Of a stretch of DNA of 64,000 nt, positions 13,788 through 64,000 are shown piece after piece. Source of the stretch: Chondrosia reniformis. Its lineage: Eukaryota; Porifera; Demospongiae; Chondrillida; Chondrillidae. The translations under genes and the position numbers were made by a program. Numbering within the stretch: the first letter of the stretch is position 1; each line of letters starts with the position of its first letter. Below the pieces are notes generated by a model. That model saw only the letters and a list, made by a program, of their open reading frames with translations. It was not told the origin of the DNA and searched no databases. The stretch covers positions 64,501-128,500 of the forward strand of contig OX359196.1 in assembly GCA_947172415.1 (NCBI GenBank). The letters run 5' to 3'.

Positions 13788-16700
13788 ATGCAAGGTCTAT
13801 TGTTCAGCGTCCTCCTGTCTCTAGTGGTGCAACAAAGAGGTAAGGTATCAGTAGTCTACGGCTTGAGCTAGATTAATGAGAGGAGCGTTCAGCTTTCGGA
13901 ACGACCGTTGGCCTAGGCTACAGGTAGTAGATATTCAATTACTTTCGAATACCAATTTAATGGCTAATACTGAATACTAAAAAGTGTCGCTTCGCTGTGT
14001 ACCTGTAAATAGTCCTCTCCCCAGTACAACCTGAGGCAGACCACTTAGTAGTTGGTACCCAATCAAGGGTCGTGGCTGACTGAATGATATCATTTCAGTG
14101 GCCACTTGTGTACTGGTCGAGATTGTCTTTTAGTGAAGTAATTGAGTGCAACTTATTAGTGCATTCCTTTTGTCTGCAGGGACTGTCAGCCAAGGGGCAA
14201 ACCCTTTAATCAGTATATCTCTCATGCCATTGAACAGGATTGTTGTTTCAGAAAGTAGTACAACCTTTTCATGTGAAATTAATGAAGCTGAATTTTCAGC
14301 ACTTTCATATGCATGGTACCATGATGACGGTGAAGTTACATCTGGTGAAGGCGCCATTATCACGCCCAGCAATGGAGGACAGACATCCTCTCTAACTCTA
14401 ACGGTCACAGATGACCGTGTTGGCATGTACTGGTGCGTAGCCGATCTTGGTGCAGTAGGGTCTGTCACTTCTCTGAGAGCCCAACTACAAGCCGCTTGTA
14501 AGTTACCCAAACTGAATACATGATTCGTTTCAATGTTCCCAGTTTGTCAATAGACACACTTTACAGTTTACACATTGTCCATAGACACAGGTACTTTCGG
14601 TAGTAATTCAATGTCGTCACTGACAGTGTCTGAGGGGATTCCCCTTGCCATACCCTGTAACCCACCAGAGAGTGTGCCGAGTGCCACATTGGAGTGGTAC
14701 ATTGAGGGGGAGTCTGTAGACACACCAGTGACTGCTGACACAAGGATATCTGTGTCTCTTGAGGGAGCCCTAATCTTCAGCCCTGTCAGGTCGGGCGAAG
14801 ATGCAGGGCGGACATATTTCTGCCAAGTTACCAACACCGTGGATGCCAGCCTTGTTGAGACAGGCCCAAGGGTGGTTCTGATGGACTCGCAAGGTATTAC
14901 GGGAAGAGGGTGGCCATTTGCATGACTTGAGATGCTTGTCTCTTCTCTTACAGATCAGGGTCCAATATTTAGTGATCACACATTTGTGTCTCAGCCCTCC
15001 AATGCTTCTGTACTTGCAGGAGAAGATGCTACTTTTGGATGCTTTTCTAAAGGGAGGTGAGATACAGTTTATGCTACCACGCCCACTTTGTCACGCCCAC
15101 TTTGTCACGCCCCGTTCCTTTTGCAGTCCAGCGGACCAGGTCAAGTGGTTTAAGGATGGAACAGAAATAGCAGCAAATGAACAGATATCATTTTTACAGA
15201 ATAAAAGGATTTTATTCATTTCCTCTGTTCAATCTTCCAATGAAGGAAGGTACTATTGTCAAATTGAGCAAGTTGGTTTTGATAATGCTCTCAGCTCGAC
15301 AAGTGCATATTTGGAGATGCTAAGTGAGTGATAAACATGGTGCCAACACAATCATCTTGTTGTTATGGTAACCCAACCCCTCCCCAGACCCTCCTACAAT
15401 CACTCAACACCTGGCCAATCAGAGTGCAGAGGCGGAGACTGAGACCACTTTAAGGTGCGATGCCTCAGGCTCCACCCCCTTTACATGGAGCTGGATTCAT
15501 AACAGCACGCACATAGGATCTGGCAGCCATTTTGTTGTTGATGGAAATGAGTTGACAATCAATGACCTGGGTCACTCAGACAGTGGTGTGTTTCAGTGTG
15601 TAGTGGAGGGCATCAGAGCTGGACAAACTGCCCAATCAATTGGAATACTCAATGTTAACAGTGAGTTGTGAGAGGGCTGGCAGTGCTAGACCATTACTTT
15701 ACTAACTCTCCTATGGTACAGCATTTCTGCCTCACATCACTGTGTGGCCAAAGAGAGACATCCTGACCTTCAGTGGCTCCGAGGTCCAGCTGCCCTGTCT
15801 TGCTGAGGGGGCCCCTTCCCCGCAGTACTCCTGGACTCAGGACGGGACAGAGGTGCAGGGAGACAGGTTTGCTGTTGCCATGGGAACACTGACCATCTCA
15901 AATAGTTTGCCAAGTGACAGTGGAAGTTATGTCTGTGTAGCTAGTAATGATGTTGGTAGAACTGAAAGTTTACCAACTCTGGTTGATATAATCAGTGAGT
16001 AGACTCCCTCTCTCCTCCCTCTCCCTCTCCCTCACCCCCTCATCCTACCTCTCCCCTCCCCTCACCCTCTCCCTCCCTCTCCCTCCCCTCACCCCCCTCA
16101 TCCTACCTCTCTCCTCTCCTTCCTTCTCCCTCTCCCTCTCTCCTCATCCTCTCCCTACCTCTCCCCTCCCCTCACCCCCCTCATCCTACCTCTCTCCTCT
16201 CCTTCCCTCTCCCCCTCCCTCTCCCTCTCTCCTCATCCTCTCCCTACCTCTCCCCTCTCCTCACCCCCCTCATCCTACCTCTCTCCTCTCCTTCCCTCTC
16301 CCCCTCCCTCTCCCTCTCTCCTCATCCTCTCCCTACCTCTCCCCTCCCCTCACCCCCCTCATCCTACCTCTCTCCTCTCCTTCCCTCTCCCCTTCCCTCT
16401 CCCTCTCTCCTCATCCTCTCCCTACCTCTCCCCTCCCCTCACCCCCCTCATCCTACCTCTCCCTCTCCCTCACCCCCCTCATCCTACCTCTCCCTCTCCC
16501 TCACCCCCCTCATTCTACCTCTCCCTCTCCCTCACCCCCCTCATTCTACCTCTCCCCTCCCCTCACCCCCCTTATCCTTCCCACCCCTGCTCCCTCAGAT
16601 GAACTGCCTGTAGCCTCCTTCCCAGCAATGTCTGTTATTAAGGACAAAAGAGAGACAGTTAAATTTGAGTGTGAACTACAAACATCTTTGTACAGTATCA

Positions 16701-19633
16701 CTTATCAATGGACACATGATAGTCAGATTATAATTTCCAACTCCAGAATCATAATTGAGAATGGAAACCTCACCATACATAATCTGGCTGATTCGGACAC
16801 TGGAGAATACGAGTGTGTTGCTCAAATCAGTAAAGTTGGCAGTACTGCTACCAGTGTACAGCAAACTGTTGGGTCCACACAGGTTACCGTGACAACAGAG
16901 CCACACCCACCCAGGTCTCTTAGTGTCCACACAGCAAGCATTACCTCAAGTGCAGCTCTCCTCTCCTGGACTCCGCCCACAGATGACGGAGGAAGGGCAG
17001 TCACTGGATATTCCGTTGACTTGTTACTTGTTTCTGTATTTGGACCAGACCAACTTATTGAATCTGATTGGCTTAGAATCAACCAATCAAATTTGCCAAC
17101 AGTAATGACCTCATATGAGGTCACTGGACTGTTTCCATACACAGCGTATCAGTTTAGAGTACACGCTATAAATATCAATGGAGAAGGCTTGCCTTCTCAA
17201 CCCTCAGAGACCATCGTCACAAAACAATCAGGTAAGCCTTCCCTGTCTCCTCCCTCCCACACCCAGCTCCAACCTTACCTCCCTCCCACACCCAGCTCCA
17301 ACCTTACCTCCCTCCCACACCCAGCTCCAACCTTACCTCCCTCCCACACCCAGCTCCAACCTTACCTCCCTCCCACACCCAGCTCCAACCTTACCTCCCT
17401 CCCACACCCAGCTCCAACCTTACCTCCCTCCCACACCCAGCTCCAACCTTACCTCCCTCCCACACCCAGCTCCAACCTTACCTCCCTCCCACACCCAGCT
17501 CCAACCTTACCTCCCTCCCACACCCAGCTCCAACCTTACCTCCCTCCCACACCCAGCTCCAACCTTACCTCCCTCCCACACCCAGCTCCAACCTTACCTC
17601 CCTCCCACACCCAGCTCCAACCTTACCTCCCTCCCACACCCAGCTCCAACCTTACCTCCCTCCCACACCCAGCTCCAACCTTACCTCCCTCCCACACCCA
17701 GCTCCAACCTTACCTCCCTCCCACACCCAGCTCCAACCTTACCTCCCTTTGATGTTACTGTAAGCCAAACTGGTCAACAGGGTTTGCTGAATGTCTCATG
17801 GAATGTAAGTGGCAGTCACATGACAACAGTGTGACAGTCACACGACAGCTGCATATTTATTGCCTTGATCTAATTAGGATCCCCTGTTCCGACTTCCAAA
17901 TGGAAGAGGTAGAAACGGAATTGTAACCAGTAATACAGTATCCTATAGACTTGAAGGTGATGAATTTGTTAATAAGACAACTACACAAGCATTCCTCATA
18001 ATAAGCGATCTTGTAGTCAACGCACTCTATCAAGTCAAGGTCAGGTCCTCCACCATGGCTGGCGATGGTCCATTCAGTGATATAGTGACAGCCTCCACTG
18101 GTTAGCTGTGATTGCAACATCACAGCTACTGGTTACCATAACAACCAATGTCTGTATACATGTAGGTGCATTTAATACACTTCCGGTTGTAAACATGTCA
18201 GTGTCACTCATCAGTGACCTCTCTGATTCACGTGGAGCCGTGTTCAACGTCTCCTGGTTGCCCCCTAACATCTCTCAAGAGTTTCTCGCCTTCTTCAGTC
18301 CACTCTTTTACAGAATACGTTTTATTGACAGTGAGGTCGTAGAGAGGGAGGTCAATGTGACTGTTACCATGGCAACAGTACTCTTCCTCAACTGGGGACA
18401 GCAATACAATATTATAGTACATGTGTTCTATGATGGATATGAGGCCTTTGGACCACCATCAGTTGTTACCATGGCAACCCCCAAAGGTATAGTGGCAATT
18501 CTTTAAATTATATAAAGCAGTTTACAGCAACTTTTTTATTCTGTAGGTCCTCCAGGACCAGTTTCTGATCTAACATTTTCGGTTGAATCTGGAAATCTAA
18601 TTTTAAACTGGAAACTGCCACATGATGGAGGTGGAACTATAGCAAATATAACAATTGAAGGGTTTTCCTCAAGTAAGAGCATAATACCATCAGGTTTGAC
18701 ATACATAGGTGTGCCATTCTCTGGTCACGCCCCCTTAGATGAGGGAGAATGGAGTGTAATTGCTTCAAGTAACAATACGGAGGTAACCACTCTATCAATA
18801 GAGGAGATACATTCAACAGGTTTCACAGTTCTGAGAGTAGTTGCGTGCAGCAACCTGGGTTGTTCTTGGGGAGCAGACTTGTACAACGGTTGGTCACTAC
18901 TTCTGTGAGACTTGTCTATGCGTTTTATTTACATCTTTCATTTCTATAGTGACAGTTCCCATGGCAACCACCACTGAACCTTTTTATACCACAATATGGT
19001 TTATTGCTGTTGTATCTACTGTTAGCTTTATCCTTTTAATCATTGTACTTATTGTGGTTGCCATGGTAATCAAGAGGAGCTGTAACCGCTTAGGAAAGTC
19101 AGACACTTACATTTACAACAGTAAGCTTAAATTGTTTGACCTCATTGCTCCATTTGCCTTTCTCCTTCCTCTCAAGTGTCAGAGAATGCAGGCAGTGAAG
19201 CATCAATGTTTAGCATTCGACAAAGACATTTGGACTTTGTGTAAGATACAAGTTGACATATTTGCAAATTAATTAAAGGGAATTACTCCACCTCTGTAGC
19301 CATGCTACCAGTCAAAATGACTCTTTAGGAGAAGAGAGAGCAGACTCAACACTCCAGTTGGACACGCAGATAGGATTTGGACCGCCAGATAATGAGTTTG
19401 TATTTGCTCCACCTTCATCAGCCTCCCTCAACTCAGTCTCCTCCTCATCACAACTGAGAAGCACCAATTCACTGCTGCAGGCCAAATACAGTGGCACAGA
19501 GCACCATTGGCTGAATCAAGGCTTCTCTCAGGACACTCCAGAGCATCATCGAAGAAGAGACTTCATTCGAGGACTCAGTGAAGTGGATGGCAACAGTATC
19601 ATTGCAGAAAGTGTTGCTTCAACTTATGTTTAA
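13788..19633 (+). CDS. Single-pass cell-surface receptor with six Ig and four FN3 domains
   Basis: Fifteen exons (13788-13839, 14180-14497, 14585-14893, 14954-15056, 15127-15323, 15388-15660, 15722-15994, 16599-17231, 17731-17804, 17878-18100, 18166-18486, 18547-18888, 18950-19120, 19177-19240, 19312-19633) give 1,224 aa. MQGLLFSVLLSLVV is a signal peptide. Ig domains show paired Cys with Tyr-x-Cys ends (MYWC, TYFC, YYC, FQC, YVC, YEC) at about residues 20-610. FN3 domains follow (about 620-1040; LLSWTPPTDDGG, NVSWN, NVSWLPPN, LNWKLPHDGG). A membrane helix lies at about 1055-1078, then a ~145-residue cytoplasmic tail without recognisable enzyme domain. Most Ig domains are single exons with phase 1 borders. 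The layout is that of adhesion or guidance receptors (Robo, DCC, NCAM-like), but 6 Ig + 4 FN3 matches none exactly; orthology is not claimed. Confidence 0.9.
16005..16598. repeat. Intronic C/T-rich tandem repeat block
   Basis: Nearly pure pyrimidine sequence with ~55 to 95-bp higher-order units built from CTCCCCTCACCCCCCTCATCC and CCTACCTCT segments fills the intron before the 16599 exon. It remains open in one frame, so it looks like coding sequence although GTGAGT at 15995 and CTCAG at 16598 mark it as intron. Confidence 0.85.
17247..17745. repeat. Intronic 29-bp minisatellite carrying splice acceptors, about 17 copies
   Basis: Units of 29 bp (CTCCCTCCCACACCCAG, then CTCCAACCTTAC) fill the intron before exon 17731-17804. 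Each unit has a polypyrimidine tract and CAG; the final copy supplies the acceptor that restores frame, so the exon itself begins inside the last repeat unit. Confidence 0.9.
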
Positions 19634-54628: not shown

Positions 54629-56288
54629 TCAGCTAGAGCAAGTTGATAATATCACATAGTTTGACTGACTCGCTTCCCTTGCCTGAGCTGACTTGGAAGA
54701 TGTTGACAACTTCCTTGCTCCGTGATGAAATCCTAGGTCGACAACAAGATCGACAACAAGAAGTTCTTGACTGGGAATTGATATATCTGTCGCTTCACTA
54801 CACTCTTCATCATCTTGACACTTTTCATCATTGTCACAGACTGTAGCTTTATCGAGGGACACCACCTCCAGGCTCATCTGATCAATGTTGACATGCTACA
54901 TGGGAAGACATATACAAATCTGATACACCACCAACCATATCACTTGTGAGACATTTGTCTTACTTCAGCTATTCTCCTTTTCCTTTTTAGAGTTGCACGT
55001 GTTCTCCTACGGGGGAAATTACACATACCTATATAGCACACATACTATGTTTATATTATGTATATGATATATGAATGATATTGTCTTTGTATTCTTTTTT
55101 AAATGTCAGACAGAACTCAACATTTGGGTACATGATGCACATTTGAGAGGAACGTCCAGAGATATTGCAAGAACCAAGTTCCATACCAAATTCAAAAATC
55201 CAAATTGTATTTACTTTTGGATTGTTAGAAGATACATGGCCAATGAGTGCATACACCTACCAGAGCCAGTACGGACACACCCCCATGATAACTGCCGCTA
55301 TTAGGAGCAGCAAGCAGCAGGCTACAACCAAGGAGATAGTTAGGGGACTATCTGATCCTACTGGTGCAGCGGGCACATTTGGTGACTGATTGAGAGCAAT
55401 ACTTGAAGAGGCAGTGATACTTGAAGAGGCAGTGATACTTGAAGAGGCAGTGATACTTGAAGAGGCAGTGATACTTGAAGAGGCAGTGATACTTGAAGAG
55501 GCAGTGATACTTGAAGTGTCAGTGCTACCTGAATTGGTAATTTGAAAAGGCAGTGATATTTAAAGAGGCAGTGACATTGTTACCTGGAATGTGCAGTAAT
55601 GGAACGTCTGTGCACATATAATTACTTACTGGTGGGACAAGTGTAATTGCCAATTTCAACTTTTGGGCCCCATGAATCATCTCCCAATATAAATAATCTT
55701 ATGATACAAGTGTTCACATAAATTGGTAAATATGTGTAGCATGACGTCGACGTTGATATTCTGAATTCAATCGACAGTTGTTCCTTTGTCAATCTGCTTA
55801 GTCTATATTGTTCCTGTTAATATACAGTAAATATACATATACAAGTAATATCCATGCAAGAGATATATTAGCAAGTAATATATTGACAATCTTCATATTT
55901 AATTTGCATATCTCTATAATGCAGGTACTTAATCAAATTCTACATCTATAGATACATTTTGGAATTTTTTCATTCAGTAACTTGTATATTATATATCTGG
56001 ATATATATGTGAGTGTATGTGTGTACATATATATCTTACACATGCAGTTGGTGTATTATTAGTATTTCTACATTCAGAAAATACATAAAAACCAGAATAA
56101 TGAGCACTCTCAACTGGTTGGGTGTCCAAGGGATGTGATATGAAGCCAGATATGACTGTCTGGGAGCATGACAAGTTTGTCAGAATAGCAACTGCAACAG
56201 ACATAAAGTACATTGAGATAGAAATGTAATAAAGTGTCAAATATATGACTAATTGTCTAATTAATAGAGACCTTGGTATAGGATACAT
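54629..56288 (-). CDS. Six-cysteine single-pass membrane protein with ITIM-like tail, paralogue 1
   Basis: Five exons (56040-56288, 55630-55813, 55261-55528, 54964-55006, 54629-54895) give 336 aa. A hydrophobic N-terminus (LVIYLTLYYISISMYFMSVAVA) acts as signal peptide. The ectodomain has six Cys (NLSC, FSEC, PTAC, STSC, VNTC, NYTC) spaced 31, 9, 24, 10 and 22. A Ser/Thr stalk made of ITASSS repeats follows, then a membrane helix (LVVACCLLLLIAAVIMGV), a basic stop-transfer (RATLKRKRRIAE) and an acidic tail ending in SNYVILSTCSS. S-x-Y-x-x-L fits the ITIM consensus. The start is uncertain: 56288 is the first in-frame ATG, but an acceptor-like TCTGTTGCAG before 56191 has the same position and phase as in paralogue 2, so a separate signal-peptide exon is possible. 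I do not recognise the ectodomain family. Confidence 0.75.
55401..55526 (-). repeat. Coding 18-bp tandem repeat (ITASSS stalk)
   Basis: Six identical 18-bp units and one diverged unit (55509-55526) encode a Ser/Thr stalk between the cysteine domain and membrane helix, probably O-glycosylated. The period keeps frame, so stalk length may vary between alleles. Confidence 0.9.
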
Positions 56289-56561
56289 GTGTGTGTATAG
56301 TAATGATATAATAATAATATGAAAGGGAGTTCAAAGGTCATGGTGTGATGTGTGAATATCTCTATCAGTGCATATTTCACCATAGGGTACCATGTCATTG
56401 GTGGATAGAAGCCTTAAATTTTAAACACACAGACTTCCAGAAACCCAACATATCACACAAATGGTTGAATATATAATTGTACCACAATATATTAAAACTT
56501 ATCAAGTCTGTACTGTACCATGGGGTGCCAAAGTGTCAAAATTACACTCTGTTAAGGATAT
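56289..56561. other. AT-rich spacer; nothing recognised
   Basis: Upstream of paralogue 1. May hold its promoter or a signal-peptide exon; neither could be fixed. Confidence 0.4.
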
Positions 56562-57108
56562 CATAGCCTGATATATACCCATATCATAGCCTGATATATA
56601 CCCATATCATAGCCTGATATATACCCATATCATAGCCTGATATATACCCATATCATAGCCTGATATATACCCATATCATAGCCTGATATATATACCCATA
56701 TCATAGCCTGATATATACCCATATCATAGCCTGATATATACCCATATCATAGCCTGATATATACCCATATCATAGCCTGATATATACCCATATCATAGCC
56801 TGATATATACCCATATCATAGCCTGATATATACCCATATCATAGCCTGATATATACCCATATCATAGCCTGATATATACCCATATCATAGCCTGATATAT
56901 ACCCATATCATAGCCTGATATATACCCATATCATAGCCTGATATATACCCATATCATAGCCTGATATATACCCATATCATAGCCTGATATATACCCATAT
57001 CATAGCCTGATATATACCCATATCATAGCCTGATATATATACCCATATCATAGCCTGATATATACCCATATCATAGCCTGATATATACCCATATCATAGC
57101 CTGATATC
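56562..57108. repeat. 23-bp AT-rich minisatellite, about 23 copies
   Basis: ATCATAGCCTGATATATACC with CAT, 23 bp per unit, nearly identical throughout; two units have an extra TA. Confidence 0.95.
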
Positions 57109-57110
57109 CA

Positions 57111-57139
<29 letters not shown>
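57106..57139. repeat. (ATT)n microsatellite
   Basis: Run of ATT triplets directly following the 23-bp repeat. Confidence 0.95.
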
Positions 57140-57142
<3 letters not shown>

Positions 57143-57267
57143 TGATGTACCCAAGGCACGCAACCCAGCCACATATACAGTCTATATAACCACATGAGGA
57201 GGATATAATCACATTTCCGAGAAAGTGAAAGTAGCACTAGAACTTGTGGAACATTTACTGTTGACCC

Positions 57268-57904
<637 letters not shown>

Positions 57905-60900
57905 GTACATTAACTCTGTTTACCAGCATTTAATATACATTGAGGGCTGTAACTCCATCAAAACTAACGATATGAAGCTAACACCTTGTGTCAGCATTCA
58001 CAGACATCTATAGAGCATGTCAAATGAGTTTTTGAAATTTGGATGGAACTTAAAATTTGCCCTATCTCTCAACATACTTTAACTTTGTATACCAGAATTC
58101 AATGTACATTGAGGGCTGTAACTCTATCAAATGGAGAGATGTGAAGCTAATACTTGATGTCAGCATTCACAGACATGTATGAAACATTTCCAAAGAGTTT
58201 TAGATGTTTCAATTTATGTTCATATTTGAATTATCTCTCACCTTACATATGAGTATATCCTACAATATAGTATTGGAGCTACAATTGCTTTCAAAGCATT
58301 ATTTAGCCTAGAAATAAGAATCTATTTTTATCGGTACATTATTCTCTCAATTCTAAAATTTAAATTAGGAATTGAGTAATTCATACAGCCGACCTAGTTG
58401 CAATATCGATCATAGACATTAATATCGTAGAGGCGATAAATATCAGTCTACTCGCAATATCTCTAATTTTCGGCATCAAGAATAGTCGCTTGCCTCCCTC
58501 CATCAAGATACATACTGACTTTTATCCATTTGTCACAGTTTTGAGATGTATTGGAAATACTGCGTATGCGTGTAAAATTGTTTGGAACGATTCACTGGTC
58601 TGGAATTAAAGTGGAATAATGACGATTTCTCGAAAATAATTGGGATCAGAAAAGTCGTTCTCCTCGGCCCATCAAGACACTTACTGGTTTTTTTCCGCTT
58701 TCCCCAGTTTTCAGATGAACCACTAATACTGCCTATGTCTTTAAATTTGCTTAGAACAATTCACTGATCTGGAAATAACGAGAAATTTGTAAAAAAATGC
58801 CCCAACCACAACCGTTTTCTTTGGACAAAACTTCATATAAATAGAAGCGAAAAACCTTATAAAGTAGGCCTACCTGGACACATCTCTATGGTGGTTGCGG
58901 TTCCCATAGAGGTTGGTAGCGCTTAGACTCTGAAGCTGTCTCCTAATCGGTTGGTGCCATAGAGACGTGCTCACCAATAATCCGGATTTCGGGGGGGTTC
59001 CACGTAATGTGGGATTGGCATCTGATATCTTAGGATTCATATGAGTCGGCCATATCGAGAAGAACTGGTTCTTCTCACGCAAGTGACACCCAAAGCTCAA
59101 CTCGGCAGAGCGTTACCACCGATCCCGGCCTCTGAGCGTCGTGGATGGTAGCGTTCGGTATGGTCCAACTTTTTTTCTTTGGAGTTTCGTTGGCCGTCGA
59201 TCGGCAAAATTTCACTTTAACGACATCCATATATTATATATGGATAGATAGTACTTCGATAACAATCAAGTACTACACAGTGCATATCCCTATGTATAAA
59301 AAATTGGAAACTGTTCTGGATTTTCAGATATAGAATGGAACTTTGTCTTTATTGTAAACCTTCTAACGGTCGGCCATATATAGTATTACGCAATTTCTCT
59401 AACAATTCAATACATTAACTGTAGTTCTGTAACTCTATCAATTGGATATATATGAAGCTGTGACTTAGTGTCAGCATTCACAGACATCTATTAAGCATGA
59501 TCAATGAGTTTTTGAAATTTTGATGGAACATAAAATTTGCCTTATCTCTCACCATACATTAATTTTGTACACCGGAATTTAATGTCATTTTACATTGAGG
59601 GCTGTAACTCTATCAAATGGAGAGATGTTGAGCTAATACTTGATGTCAGCATTCACAGACATCTATAGAGCATGTCCAATGAGTTTTTGAAATTTTGATT
59701 TCTACATAAAATTTGCCCTATCTCTCACCATACATTAACTTTGTACACCGGAATTTAATGTCATTTTACATTGAGGGCTGTTACTCTATCAAATGGAGAG
59801 ATGTGAAGCTAACACTTTGTGTCAGCATTCACAGACATCTATAGAGTATGTCCAATGAGTTTTTGAAATTTTGATGGAACATAAAATTTGCCCTATCTCT
59901 CACCATACTTTAACTTTGAATACCAGAATTTAATGTACATTGCCGGCTGTAACTCTATCATATAGAGAGATGTGAAGCCAACACTTGGTGTCAGCATTCA
60001 CAGACATCTATAGAGCATGTCAAATGAGTTTTTGAAATTTTGATTCTACATAAAATTTGCCCTATCTCTCACCATACATTAATTTTGTATACCAGAATTT
60101 AATGTACATTGAGGGCTGTAACTCTATCAAATGGAGAGATATATGAAGCTAACACTTTGTGTCAGCATTCACAGACATCTATAGAGTATGTCCAATGAGT
60201 TTTTGAAATTTTGATGGAACATAAAATTTGCCCTATCTCTCACCATACTTTAACTTTGAATACCAGAATTTAATGTACATTGCCGGCTGTAACTCTATCA
60301 TATAGAGAGATGTGAAGCCAACACTTGGTGTCAGCATTCACAGACATCTATAGAGCATGTCAAATGAGTTTTTGAAATTTTGATTCTACATAAAATTTGC
60401 CCTATCTCTCACCATACATTAATTTTGTATACCAGAATTTAATGTACATTGAGGGCTGTAACTCTATCAAATGGAGAGATATATGAAGCTAACACTTTGT
60501 GTCAGCATTCACAGACATCTATAGAGCATGTCTAATGAGTTTTTGAAATTTTGATGGAACTTAAAATTTGCCTTATCTCTCACCATATATTAATTTTGTA
60601 TACTGGAATGTAATGTACATTTAGGGCTGTAACTCTATCAAATGGAGAGATATGGAGCTAATACTTAATGTCAGCTTTCACAGACATCTATAGAGCATGT
60701 CCAATGAGTTTTTGAAATTTTGATGGAACATAAAATTTGCCCTATCTCTCACCATACTTTAACTTTGAATACCAGAATTTAATGTACATTGCCGGCTGTA
60801 ACTCTATCATATAGAGAGATGTGAAGCCAACACTTGGTGTCAGCATTCACAGACATCTATAGAGCATGTCAAATGAGTTTTTGAAATTTTGATTCTACAT

Positions 60901-62085
60901 AAAATTTGCCCTATCTCTCACCATACATTAATTTTGTATACCAGAATTTAATGTACATTGAGGGCTGTAACTCTATCAAATGGAGAGATATATGAAGCTA
61001 ACACTTTGTGTCAGCATTCACAGACATCTATAGAGCATGTCTAATGAGTTTTTGAAATTTTGATGGAACTTAAAATTTGCCTTATCTCTCACCATATATT
61101 AATTTTGTATACTGGAATGTAATGTACATTTAGGGCTGTAACTCTATCAAATGGAGAGATATGGAGCTAATACTTAATGTCAGCTTTCACAGACATCTAT
61201 AGAGCATGTCCAATGAGTTTTTGAAATTTTGATGGAACATAAAATTTGCCCTATCTCTCACCATACTTTAACTTTGAATACCAGAATTTAATGTACATTG
61301 CCGGCTGTAACTCTATCATATAGAGAGATGTGAAGCCAACACTTGGTGTCAGCATTCACAGACATCTATAGAGCATGTCAAATGAGTTTTTGAAATTTTG
61401 ATTCTACATAAAATTTGCCCTATCTCTCACCATACATTAATTTTGTATACCAGAATTTAATGTACATTGAGGGCTGTAACTCTATCAAATGGAGAGATAT
61501 ATGAAGCTAACACTTTGTGTCAGCATTCACAGACATCTATAGAGCATGTCTAATGAGTTTTTGAAATTTTGATGGAACTTAAAATTTGCCTTATCTCTCA
61601 CCATATATTAATTTTGTATACTGGAATGTAATGTACATTTAGGGCTGTAACTCTATCAAATGGAGAGATATGGAGCTAATACTTAATGTCAGCTTTCACA
61701 GACATCTATAGAGCATGTCCAATGAGTTTTTGAAATTTTGATGGAATATAAAATTTGCCCTATCTCTCACCATACTTTAACTTTGAATACCTGAATTTAA
61801 TGTTACATTTAGTACTGCAACTCTATCATATAGAGAGATGTGAAGCTAACACTTGGTGTCAGCATTCACAGACATCTATAGAGCATGTCCAATGAGTTTT
61901 TTAAATTTTGATGGAACATAAAATTTGCCCTATCTCTCACCATACATTAATTTTGTATACTGGAATGTAATGTACATTGCCGGCTGTAACTCTATCAAAT
62001 GGAGAGATATGAAGCTAACGCTTTGTGTCAGCATTCACAGACATCTATAGAGCATGTCTAATGAGTTTTGAAAATGTTGATGTGA
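57905..62085 (+). repeat. Second 169-bp satellite array
   Basis: About 18 monomers of the same family as the large array, split by element copy 5. From about 59972 higher-order repeats appear: GTGAAGCCAACACTTGG recurs at 59972, 60312, 60821 and 61330, i.e. a 340-bp dimer step and then 509-bp trimer steps. Subtypes with GATTCTACAT instead of GATGGAACAT are found only here. Confidence 0.95.
58310..59425 (+). mobile_element. 1.1 kb satellite-embedded element, copy 5
   Basis: Copy 22 kb from copy 4, same orientation. It shares the upstream ATTGGAGCTACAATTG extension and GGACAAAACTTC with copy 1, but the CATATATTATATATGG palindrome with copies 2-4. Minus ORF 58870-59100 is unchanged. Confidence 0.55.
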
Positions 62086-62511
62086 AAAACATTTCAATAT
62101 ATACATTAAGGTCTTCTATGATATGTACAGTGTACAGTTATATAGTGCTCTAGCTGGGCAAATATGAAGGTTAATATACTTGGCCATGGTGTGATGTATT
62201 CACATGTATATATCATGTTCATTGCATTTTTATATGTGTCATCATATTCAGGTATGGAGAAAGTTGTGTATGCATATATATGTTAATCAACTGTTTTGTC
62301 GGACATTTGCTAGATGTTCAATGATATCAATATTCTAGATTAGGTTAAACAATGGAGCTAACATTCCAGTGATTAATTGTTTTTGTGTCCTCCTGCTTCA
62401 AAGTTTATGAGTGTGGGAGCCAATTGAATAGGCTGTTTTTATAGTGAGTTTAAAATGTAGTAGTATGTAGGTGTCAAGCTACTGTTTATTAGGCAGGTGC
62501 ACATTATCCAA
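62086..62511. other. 3' flank of paralogue 2; nothing recognised
   Basis: AT-rich sequence between the second satellite array and the stop codon of the membrane protein gene, probably 3' UTR and spacer. Confidence 0.5.
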
Positions 62512-63861
62512 TCAGTTCATACTCATACTCCCAATGCAAATGTATCCAATTGGTGAAATTGGCACTTTGACATTTTCAGACTCTTTGTTTTGATCTTGTG
62601 CTAAGCTTGACAGTGTGTCCTGCTCCTTCTTATTGTCCTTTTCACTAAACTCTGTCCAATCTTGTATAATAGTTCCTGTGTCACTTGACATATTATCCAA
62701 TTCAATCAAGGTGATGTTATTTATTGCCTATACAATACAATATTTATATAACAGCCATATTTATCAACTTGTACAAAGGAGAAAGTGACATGAAACTGTA
62801 TCCTTATCCAAAGTTCTATAGGTTTTGGAAGAGGATGCTCTTTGGAACTTCAATCAAGCTCCTGAAATGGCTATATAGCTTAAATCTAGGTAATTGTATG
62901 GTGAATGTATATATTTCAGAAACACTCACATCTCTGACACATTTTTTTGAGATTTTATTTCTGTTTAACCTTGCACTATACAATAAATCAGTTTATGAGG
63001 CATTATACGCATAGTTTGTGAAAATATCATGTCAATGTTTACCTATATATATTAACATGCTTACTTCAAGATGCAAAGGGAAAGTCCCACAATGGCTAGA
63101 CCCCCAACTAAAGCAAGTGGAGTGACTACTGCAATCAGAGCTACATTTAGTTTTGCATAACCATCACTTCCTGTTGAATTATTCTGCTCATAATCAATAG
63201 CATCACCTATAGAGTTTGGCAACATTAGCTGATTTTTTGGTACATGTCTACAGTAGCATATATCGAGAAGTTAAATTTTGATTACAACAGTTTTTCATAT
63301 ACACATGCATACATGTATCTAAATGGTTATATGATAGATATTATAATAGTATGTGAACTGATACTATAGAATGACCAGAAACACTTTATAACCTGCAAAA
63401 GTGCAGTTTCCATAAATTGGGATTTGTTTCTCTTCCTTGATGTGATAAAGCTTAAGAATAACTTGGCAGTCTGTTTTCCCAACATTTCTACTCTCATTTG
63501 TAGCAACCTCATCACAACCATCCAAAATAAAGTCTTCAACAAGTGAATATGTTCCGTTTTTCAAAGGACTGCCTCCAAATCTACAAGTCAGCTATGAAAT
63601 GTACAATATAGGATAGTTATATATATATATATATATCTACCTAAAGCTATGCACAGACCTATATTCACATATTGCAGGTTGTGTTATAACAGTATATGTC
63701 TGTGCAGTTAATGCTCACTATCTCTACAGAGTCATCTTTGTATGTATAGCATTCCAGTTCTGGTTTGAAGTTGTAGTATGCACCAGGGTTGTAAAACATA
63801 GTTGTGAATGTCACATTTGGATGTCGTGTTCCATCCTCACAGGAAATATTAGGGAGAATCA
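62512..63861 (-). CDS. Six-cysteine single-pass membrane protein with ITIM-like tail, paralogue 2 (5' end missing)
   Basis: Five exons (63719-63861, 63393-63591, 63065-63206, 62930-62975, 62512-62727) encode 247 residues of a protein whose signal-peptide exon lies upstream, probably beyond the window. The first exon opens after TATTGTATAG; the frame continues further upstream without an ATG. The ectodomain again has six Cys (NISC, LEC, LTC, DGC, TDC, GNC) spaced 29, 12, 22, 15 and 20, with several N-glycosylation sites (NISC, NVT, NGT, NES, NCT). Membrane helix VALIAVVTPLALVGGLAIVGLSLC, then basic NARLNRNKISKK, then a tail ending IGYICIGSMSMN. I-x-Y-x-x-I fits the ITIM consensus. Intron phases after the first exon shown (0, 1, 2, 0) equal those of paralogue 1, and the 46-bp juxtamembrane exon matches its 43-bp counterpart. 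The stalk is short and lacks the ITASSS repeat. Confidence 0.75.
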
Positions 63862-64000
63862 CTATACAATAGAAAAGAACATTGAAACATTTAAGGAGAT
63901 TAAACACTGGCCCAAGCTTAACTGTGTACTCTTAGCCATAGGTCTCCGTGTCTGTATTTCAGATCTCAATTAATTACAGTACTAATCAATTAGTCAAGAT
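63862..64000. other. Upstream intron or leader of paralogue 2; nothing fixed
   Basis: An ATG at 63939 opens a short frame that cannot be joined to the 63861 exon in the right phase, so the true first exon is probably outside the window. Confidence 0.35.

Follow-up and report, generated by a model that had tools for sequence, protein, structure and literature searches.

A cluster of seven six-cysteine membrane-protein genes in the sponge Chondrosia reniformis, a candidate family of recombining recognition receptors

A 2025 review argues for convergence on signalling through immunoreceptor tyrosine-based activation and inhibitory motifs (ITAMs and ITIMs) among allorecognition receptors that are otherwise unrelated, from those of cnidarians to those of mammals, and describes the sponge, cnidarian and ascidian allorecognition candidates as not mutually conserved (PMC12065747). 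In Hydractinia, 40 Alr and Alr-like genes are reported on one chromosome (PMC11876637), and candidate Alr genes have been reported to carry motifs of the ITIM/ITAM type (cited in PMC12065747). The FcoR receptors of Botryllus (fuhc locus) are described as having long tails with ITIMs or the core Y-x-x-I/L/V at one locus, as containing immunoglobulin (Ig) and sushi domains and as being paired with the fester genes (PMC12065747). Among the paired receptors of vertebrates, KIR (PMC12310515) and Siglec-11/16 (PMC5701461) are reported to combine near-identical ectodomains with opposite outputs, gene conversion also being reported for Siglec-11/16, and CD300A and CD300C are reported to have ligands in common (PMC12447643). 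A candidate for recognition in sponges is the aggregation factor (Grice et al. 2017, cited in PMC12065747), a proteoglycan complex described as extracellular (PMC11999971). Here, we analyse a stretch of 64 000 nucleotides from the sponge Chondrosia reniformis (the window, C8:64501–128500, where C8 is contig OX359196.1) together with the adjoining part of the contig, in which seven genes (g1–g7) encode membrane proteins with a six-cysteine ectodomain.

The sponge genes resemble those of the Alr system in forming a cluster of predicted surface genes with ITIM-type motifs in an early-branching animal, and differ in that their ectodomain has six cysteines and is matched by no Ig model in Pfam; Alr ectodomains are divergent Ig-like domains. 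In common with Botryllus FcoR they would be surface receptors with long, motif-bearing tails at a single locus, but the Ig and sushi domains of FcoR are not in the Pfam listing of the sponge proteins. As in the vertebrate paired receptors, near-identical ectodomains are found on different tails (g4/g5 and g6/g7), whereas the vertebrate proteins have the Ig fold and three of the sponge genes (g3, g4 and g6) encode a helix without a charged residue. Activating paired receptors typically use a charged helix residue. With the aggregation factor they share the standing of a sponge recognition candidate, but g1–g7 encode membrane proteins with tails. Since the ectodomain differs by the Pfam models and the short tails come without a charged helix residue, the sponge family, known here from genes alone, would work like the Alr, FcoR and KIR-type systems yet cannot be assigned to them. 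Our best explanation, which we hold tentatively, is a small family of recombining recognition receptors at C8:119–214 kb, consisting of type I single-pass proteins that are possibly paired and SHP2-coupled.

A seven-gene cluster with mosaic copies

The seven genes lie within ∼95 kb (C8:119–214 kb) of a genome that was searched in one assembly (117 379 552 bases, 15 contigs), an alternate haplotype (GCA_947172445.1) being deposited as well. Genes g1 and g2 are on the minus strand of the window. Genes g3, g4 and g5 are on the plus strand at C8:130162–138537 and were found by reading beyond the window; g6 and g7 are on the minus strand at C8:214250–208374 and were found by hidden Markov models (HMMs) of exons 2 and 3 trained on g1–g5 (exon 2, E = 1.1e-18 and 1.9e-18; exon 3, E = 4.3e-10 and 5.4e-10). 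All seven models have intron phases 1, 0, 1, 2 at equivalent places and six ordered ectodomain cysteines (C1–C6) followed by one membrane helix, the cysteine count of g2 depending on the choice of splice and g3 having two extra cysteines between C6 and the helix. We regard this shared plan as beyond chance because five further genes repeat it, two of which (g6 and g7) were outside the HMM training set. An initial annotation of the window had described an unrecognised family of six-cysteine single-pass proteins with two paralogues and had suggested a search past position 64000; the description of the family stands, the search yielded g3–g5 and g6–g7, and the count becomes seven. A basic juxtamembrane exon of 43 or 46 bp, given there as part of the common plan, is limited to g1 and g2 and is fused to the tail exon in the g4, g5 and g7 models.

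The cluster appears to be confined. The exon-2 and exon-3 HMMs were scanned over C8:1–227100, the window plus the loci, where the best match outside the seven genes (E = 0.022) lies antisense over exon 1 of g4. Own-genome searches with five single-protein queries (g1, g2, g3, g4 and a g6/g7 chimera) gave matches on C8:119–214 kb only, as searches that are blind to very divergent copies: the g3, g4 and g6/g7 queries miss g1 and g2, and the reverse. As a DNA pattern, WxxNFT[YF] has six matches in the genome, five of them in g3–g7 and one on C1; the latter is probably due to chance, since a reversed control gave nine.

Comparison of the copies indicates that ectodomains and tails have been reassorted. 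The ectodomains of g4 and g5 are nearly identical (synonymous divergence dS = 0.026, nonsynonymous divergence dN = 0.024), with a tail dS of 1.15 over 53 codons, while g5 and g7 show the opposite pattern (ectodomain dS = 0.98 and dN = 0.40; tail dS = 0.012 and dN = 0.016 over 135 codons). By blastn, g5 is 96.2% identical to g4 along 734 bases, up to a point just after exon 4, and 94.7% identical to g7 along 532 bases spanning the tail exon; between these, exon 4 together with a portion of intron 4 matches g7 at 86.7%. The switch point lies around the membrane exon (exon 4) and the intron after it. From this mosaic, g5 is most simply a g4-type ectodomain joined to a g7-type tail, a recombinant that unequal crossing-over or conversion would have produced in the region of exon 4 and intron 4. 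The membrane exons of g4 and g7 are likewise 97% identical over 110 bases, with ectodomains that are 49% identical. In their ectodomains, g6 and g7 share 97% identity, and the tail exon of g6, located ∼1.6 kb past exon 4, stops after 23 residues. The g3 tail seemingly stops after 35 residues, according to a last splice that we inferred. Long tails of 87–138 residues are found in g1, g2, g5 and g7 and short tails in g3, g4 and g6, so that both near-identical ectodomain pairs, g4/g5 and g6/g7, have differing tails.

Such variety in the tails is also what would be expected of adhesion or matrix-anchoring glycoproteins that arose by tandem duplication and neither discriminate nor signal, their tails differing through decay and gene conversion. 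The truncated tails of g3, g4 and g6 and the Ser/Thr repeat stalk of g1 fit this alternative, as do the changes between g4 and g5, which are close to the neutral expectation: exons 1–4 contain 13 nonsynonymous and three synonymous changes, near the ratio expected from 428 and 130 sites, and we therefore do not claim positive selection (g6 and g7 differ by four nonsynonymous and five synonymous changes). However, the g4 and g7 ectodomains are under coding constraint at 49% identity (dN = 0.39, dS = 0.97; dN/dS ∼0.4), and a tyrosine motif lies near the C-terminus of g1, g2 and g7 although their tails are otherwise divergent. On balance, we consider plain adhesion molecules to be somewhat unlikely. 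The suggestion in the initial annotation that these are surface-recognition genes is strengthened by the cluster, by the recombination of ectodomains and tails and by the coexistence of long and short tails.

Genes 1 and 2 and their relationship to g3–g7

The two genes in the window have the plan first assigned to them (leader, six-cysteine ectodomain, helix, basic exon and tail), with exon chains and open frames that hold, and their intron phases are identical (1, 0, 1, 2, 0 when the leader exon is included). Gene 1 (window 54629–57634, minus strand) has six exons, all introns being GT..AG, and an open frame of 327 residues; its hydropathy profile (Kyte–Doolittle, as for g2) displays one leader and one strong helix. 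Exon 1 (57565–57634) contains the start codon and a predicted signal peptide at the hydropathy peak and ends in phase 1. Exon 2 (56040–56191) encodes C1–C3 (NLSC...SEC...TAC) and ends in phase 0 directly after C3, and exon 3 (55630–55813) encodes C4–C6 and ends in phase 1. The cysteine spacing, counted by eye on the translation, is 31-9-24-10-22, as first given. Exon 4 (55261–55528, ending in phase 2) encodes a Ser/Thr repeat stalk and the membrane helix, whose peak window (residues 202–220) corresponds to 55275–55331. Exon 5 (54964–55006) is the 43-bp basic juxtamembrane exon and ends in phase 0, and exon 6 (54629–54895) encodes the cytoplasmic tail and the stop, with the ITIM-like motif SNYVIL at 54647–54664, five residues ahead of the C-terminus. 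Helix and motif coordinates in both genes were derived by hand from the exon models. The stalk, absent from the initial annotation, is encoded by an in-frame 18-bp tandem repeat of ∼10 copies (55399–55574, minus strand), part of which lies in exon 4 (SSITAS) and the remainder in intron 3. Intron 1 contains a 23-bp minisatellite (∼24 copies) and a long AG repeat (window 56558–57107 and 57268–57440).

Gene 2 (window 62512–63861, minus strand, with exon 1 outside) also has six exons with GT..AG introns, phases 1, 0, 1, 2, 0 and an open frame of 280 residues, or 277 with the donor at 63728. Its first exon is located at C8:128689–128593 (window-equivalent 64189–64093), 93–189 bases beyond the end of the window, and encodes a hydrophobic leader; the hydropathy profile contains one leader and one strong helix. 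Exon 2 (63719–63861) encodes C1–C2, with alternative donors that end the exon at 63728 or 63669, and exon 3 (63393–63591) encodes C3–C6, with an alternative acceptor that starts the exon at 63580. Exons 2 and 3 can be joined in frame in three ways (window 63580–63728), two of which give six cysteines and one eight. The spacing of 29-12-22-15-20 first assigned to this gene is obtained with the donor at 63719 only; the donor at 63728 gives 29-9-22-15-20, and the donor at 63669 with the acceptor at 63580 gives eight cysteines, a splice form that we note as a possibility. Exon 4 (63065–63206) encodes a short stalk and the membrane helix (peak window, residues 168–186, 63088–63144), exon 5 (62930–62975) is the 46-bp basic juxtamembrane exon and exon 6 (62512–62727) encodes the cytoplasmic tail and the stop. 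The ITIM-like motif IGYICI (62533–62550) lies six residues ahead of the C-terminus and resembles LGYVPI of g5 and g7.

Satellite arrays with a 169-bp unit (20038–40906 and 57906–62082) take up a large share of the central part of the window. The second array sits between exon 1 of g1 and the 3′ end of g2 and might promote unequal exchange. Elsewhere in the window, a plus-strand region (14882–19272) with Ig and fibronectin III-like frames, proline-rich repeats and a hydrophobic segment, recognized by eye, suggests an Ig/fibronectin III receptor gene.

Genes g3–g7 are clear homologues, with joint ectodomain z scores of 16.6–19.9 for the three pairs among g3, g4 and g7. Ectodomain pairs were compared exon by exon against 2000 shuffles, and the p values of these and the tail comparisons are uncorrected, with many pairs compared. 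The low sequence similarity between g1 and g2 described in the initial annotation is close to noise level in the ectodomain (p = 0.04 for exon 2, 0.44 for exon 3 and 0.09 jointly, with the 63728 form of g2). Joint values against g3, g4 and g7 are 0.095, 0.0175 and 0.025 for g1 and 0.08, 0.013 and 0.046 for g2. For the tails, g1 gives p = 0.0025 with g7, 0.006 with g5, 0.06 with g2 and 0.57 with g4, and g2 gives 0.03 with g5, 0.042 with g7 and 0.10 with g4, the g3 and g6 tails being left out. Two members have GY[VI]xIGS[LM] in common (g2 and g7). MAFFT alignments of six members put C4–C6 of g1 and g2 in the wrong place and were excluded as evidence.

These values leave room for an alternative in which g1 and g2 are outside the g3–g7 family, and perhaps mutually unrelated, with a common plan and common intron phases by chance. 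Leave-out HMMs of exons 2 and 3 recover neither g1 nor g2, whole-genome protein queries with either gene return only the query itself, and the joint g1–g2 value above points the same way. Set against this are the identical phases at equivalent places in all seven models (phase 1 after the leader, 0 right after C3, or two codons before it in g2, 1 after C6 and 2 straight after the helix), the six ordered cysteines, the location in the same 95 kb cluster, the motif common to g2 and g7 and the lowest of the uncorrected values, g1–g4 and g2–g4 for the ectodomains and g1–g7 for the tails. A chance resemblance thus seems quite improbable, and the case for homology is made by gene structure and location in one cluster: all seven genes are very probably homologous, g1 and g2 joining g3–g7 by architecture and weakly by sequence. 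Direct paralogy of g1 and g2 would rest on architecture, position and weak tail similarity rather than on ectodomain sequence.

The ectodomain itself is best read as an undescribed six-cysteine domain, as far as Pfam shows. No Pfam family reaches its cut-off for the five query proteins, which cover g1, g2, g3, g4 and the g6/g7 chimera (maximum E value of 10, most weak matches having been dropped by the HMMER filters); unrelated sub-threshold matches are all that is listed, and the Ig, SRCR, CUB, C-type lectin and LAMP luminal-domain models are not among them, which agrees with the absence of Ig, SRCR, CUB or lectin signatures stated initially. NCBIfam gave only weak matches below cut-off, for one of two proteins. 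In profile searches of the PDB, exon 2 matched a SAKe6AR chain (nine positions, E = 1.1e-4, no stretch passing alone) and LAMP2 (E = 9.9), and exon 3 had two matches (E = 0.99 and 1.4); we dismiss all of these as chance. The domain may prove to be divergent Ig-like or to have another known fold, as it is Pfam models that have so far set it apart. A literature search over titles and abstract openings gave no sponge paper on such a family among the matches listed, and nothing useful on grafting in Chondrosia among the matches listed.

Tail motifs, a candidate partner and possible functions

The tails of g1, g2 and g7 each contain one match to the ITIM-like pattern [ILVS]xYxx[ILV] (SNYVIL, IGYICI and LGYVPI), five, six and 12 residues from the end, respectively. 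With 20 000 shuffles per tail, a match within 20 residues of the end has P = 0.016 (g1), 0.017 (g2) and 0.033 (g7), and a match anywhere in the tail has P = 0.079, 0.060 and 0.184; these values are indicative only because the pattern was chosen after the sequences had been viewed. The translation of g5, which was left out of the shuffle run, carries the LGYVPI of g7, and the pattern is absent from the g3 and g4 tails.

The same motifs (YVIL, YICI and YVPI) also fit the YxxΦ sorting signal, and the proteins could instead be trafficking or lysosomal-type glycoproteins, LAMP-like, in which a C-terminal GYxxI/YxxL would bind adaptor complexes with no role in signalling. The N-glycosylation sequons in the ectodomains are compatible with this, as is the exon-2 match to LAMP2, although that match is at chance level and no LAMP model is in the Pfam listing. 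In LAMP proteins, the tail is very short and terminates in the motif, unlike the long tails found here, and neither recombining ectodomains nor short-tail copies would be expected. We regard a trafficking role as unlikely.

For the recognition-receptor explanation, a reader of the motif would be needed. The SH2 profile (PF00017) has 82 matches in the genome and the tyrosine phosphatase profile (PF00102) at least 173 (150 of 531 candidates scored). At C3:9116518–9106746 (minus strand), SHP2-like exons occur in the order SH2, SH2, phosphatase, apparently twice. In the first set (4001 bases read), the top PDB matches of both SH2 exons are PTPN11/SHP2 chains, with whole-sequence E values of 3.8e-33 (two stretches counted) and 3e-21, and with values near 1e-15 and of 1e-10 to 5e-9, respectively, for single-domain SHP2 chains; its phosphatase exon was assigned by the PF00102 match and a reading by eye. 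These exons indicate no more than that the genome encodes a protein of the kind required to read an ITIM. There are apparently two tandem SHP2-like genes on C3. Dense runs of PF00102 exons, seen by eye among the matches listed on C6 (∼0.6–1.3 Mb) and C13 (∼1.65–1.96 Mb), point to a large phosphatase expansion.

Within the family, ectodomains diverge, and some copies have exchanged membrane and tail exons, so that one ectodomain can sit on a long or a short tail. If these are indeed recognition receptors, the ectodomain would bind a ligand presented by a microbe or by another cell. The long tails (g1, g2, g5 and g7) would be phosphorylated at the C-terminal tyrosine motif and would set a threshold by recruiting an SH2 protein, for which the SHP2-like phosphatase is the simplest choice. 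The short-tail copies (g3, g4 and g6) may share these ligands, or bind similar ones, but give no output, in which case they would serve as competitors or decoys; judged from the helix core, they do not qualify as classical activating partners. The more specific proposal of a paired-receptor system of the sponge's own, in which a novel six-cysteine ectodomain is carried on long inhibitory (SHP2-coupled) or short silent tails for self/non-self or microbe recognition, is one that we consider doubtful.

Several observations weigh against the recognition-receptor explanation. Single short motifs are weak evidence, and the 23-residue tail remnant of g6 matches the pattern with a different, membrane-near sequence (VKYRNI), so that the pattern evidently arises easily; the post hoc choice of pattern and the failure of the leave-out HMMs to recover g1 and g2 have been described above. 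Relaxed constraint would also account for the changes between g4 and g5, and the three short-tail genes (g3, g4 and g6) may be in decay. Finally, the helix cores of these three genes, read by eye on the translations, contain no charged residue.

The paired-receptor reading, if true, would extend the ITIM logic of ascidians and cnidarians to sponges, on a domain that no Ig model recognizes. The combination of ITIM-like tails, exchangeable ectodomains and an SHP2-like gene would make ITAM/ITIM convergence testable in sponges. Should no signalling be involved, the locus is still of value for population work on the individuality of sponges, as it contains an undescribed ectodomain family in which recombination between ectodomains and tails can be seen.

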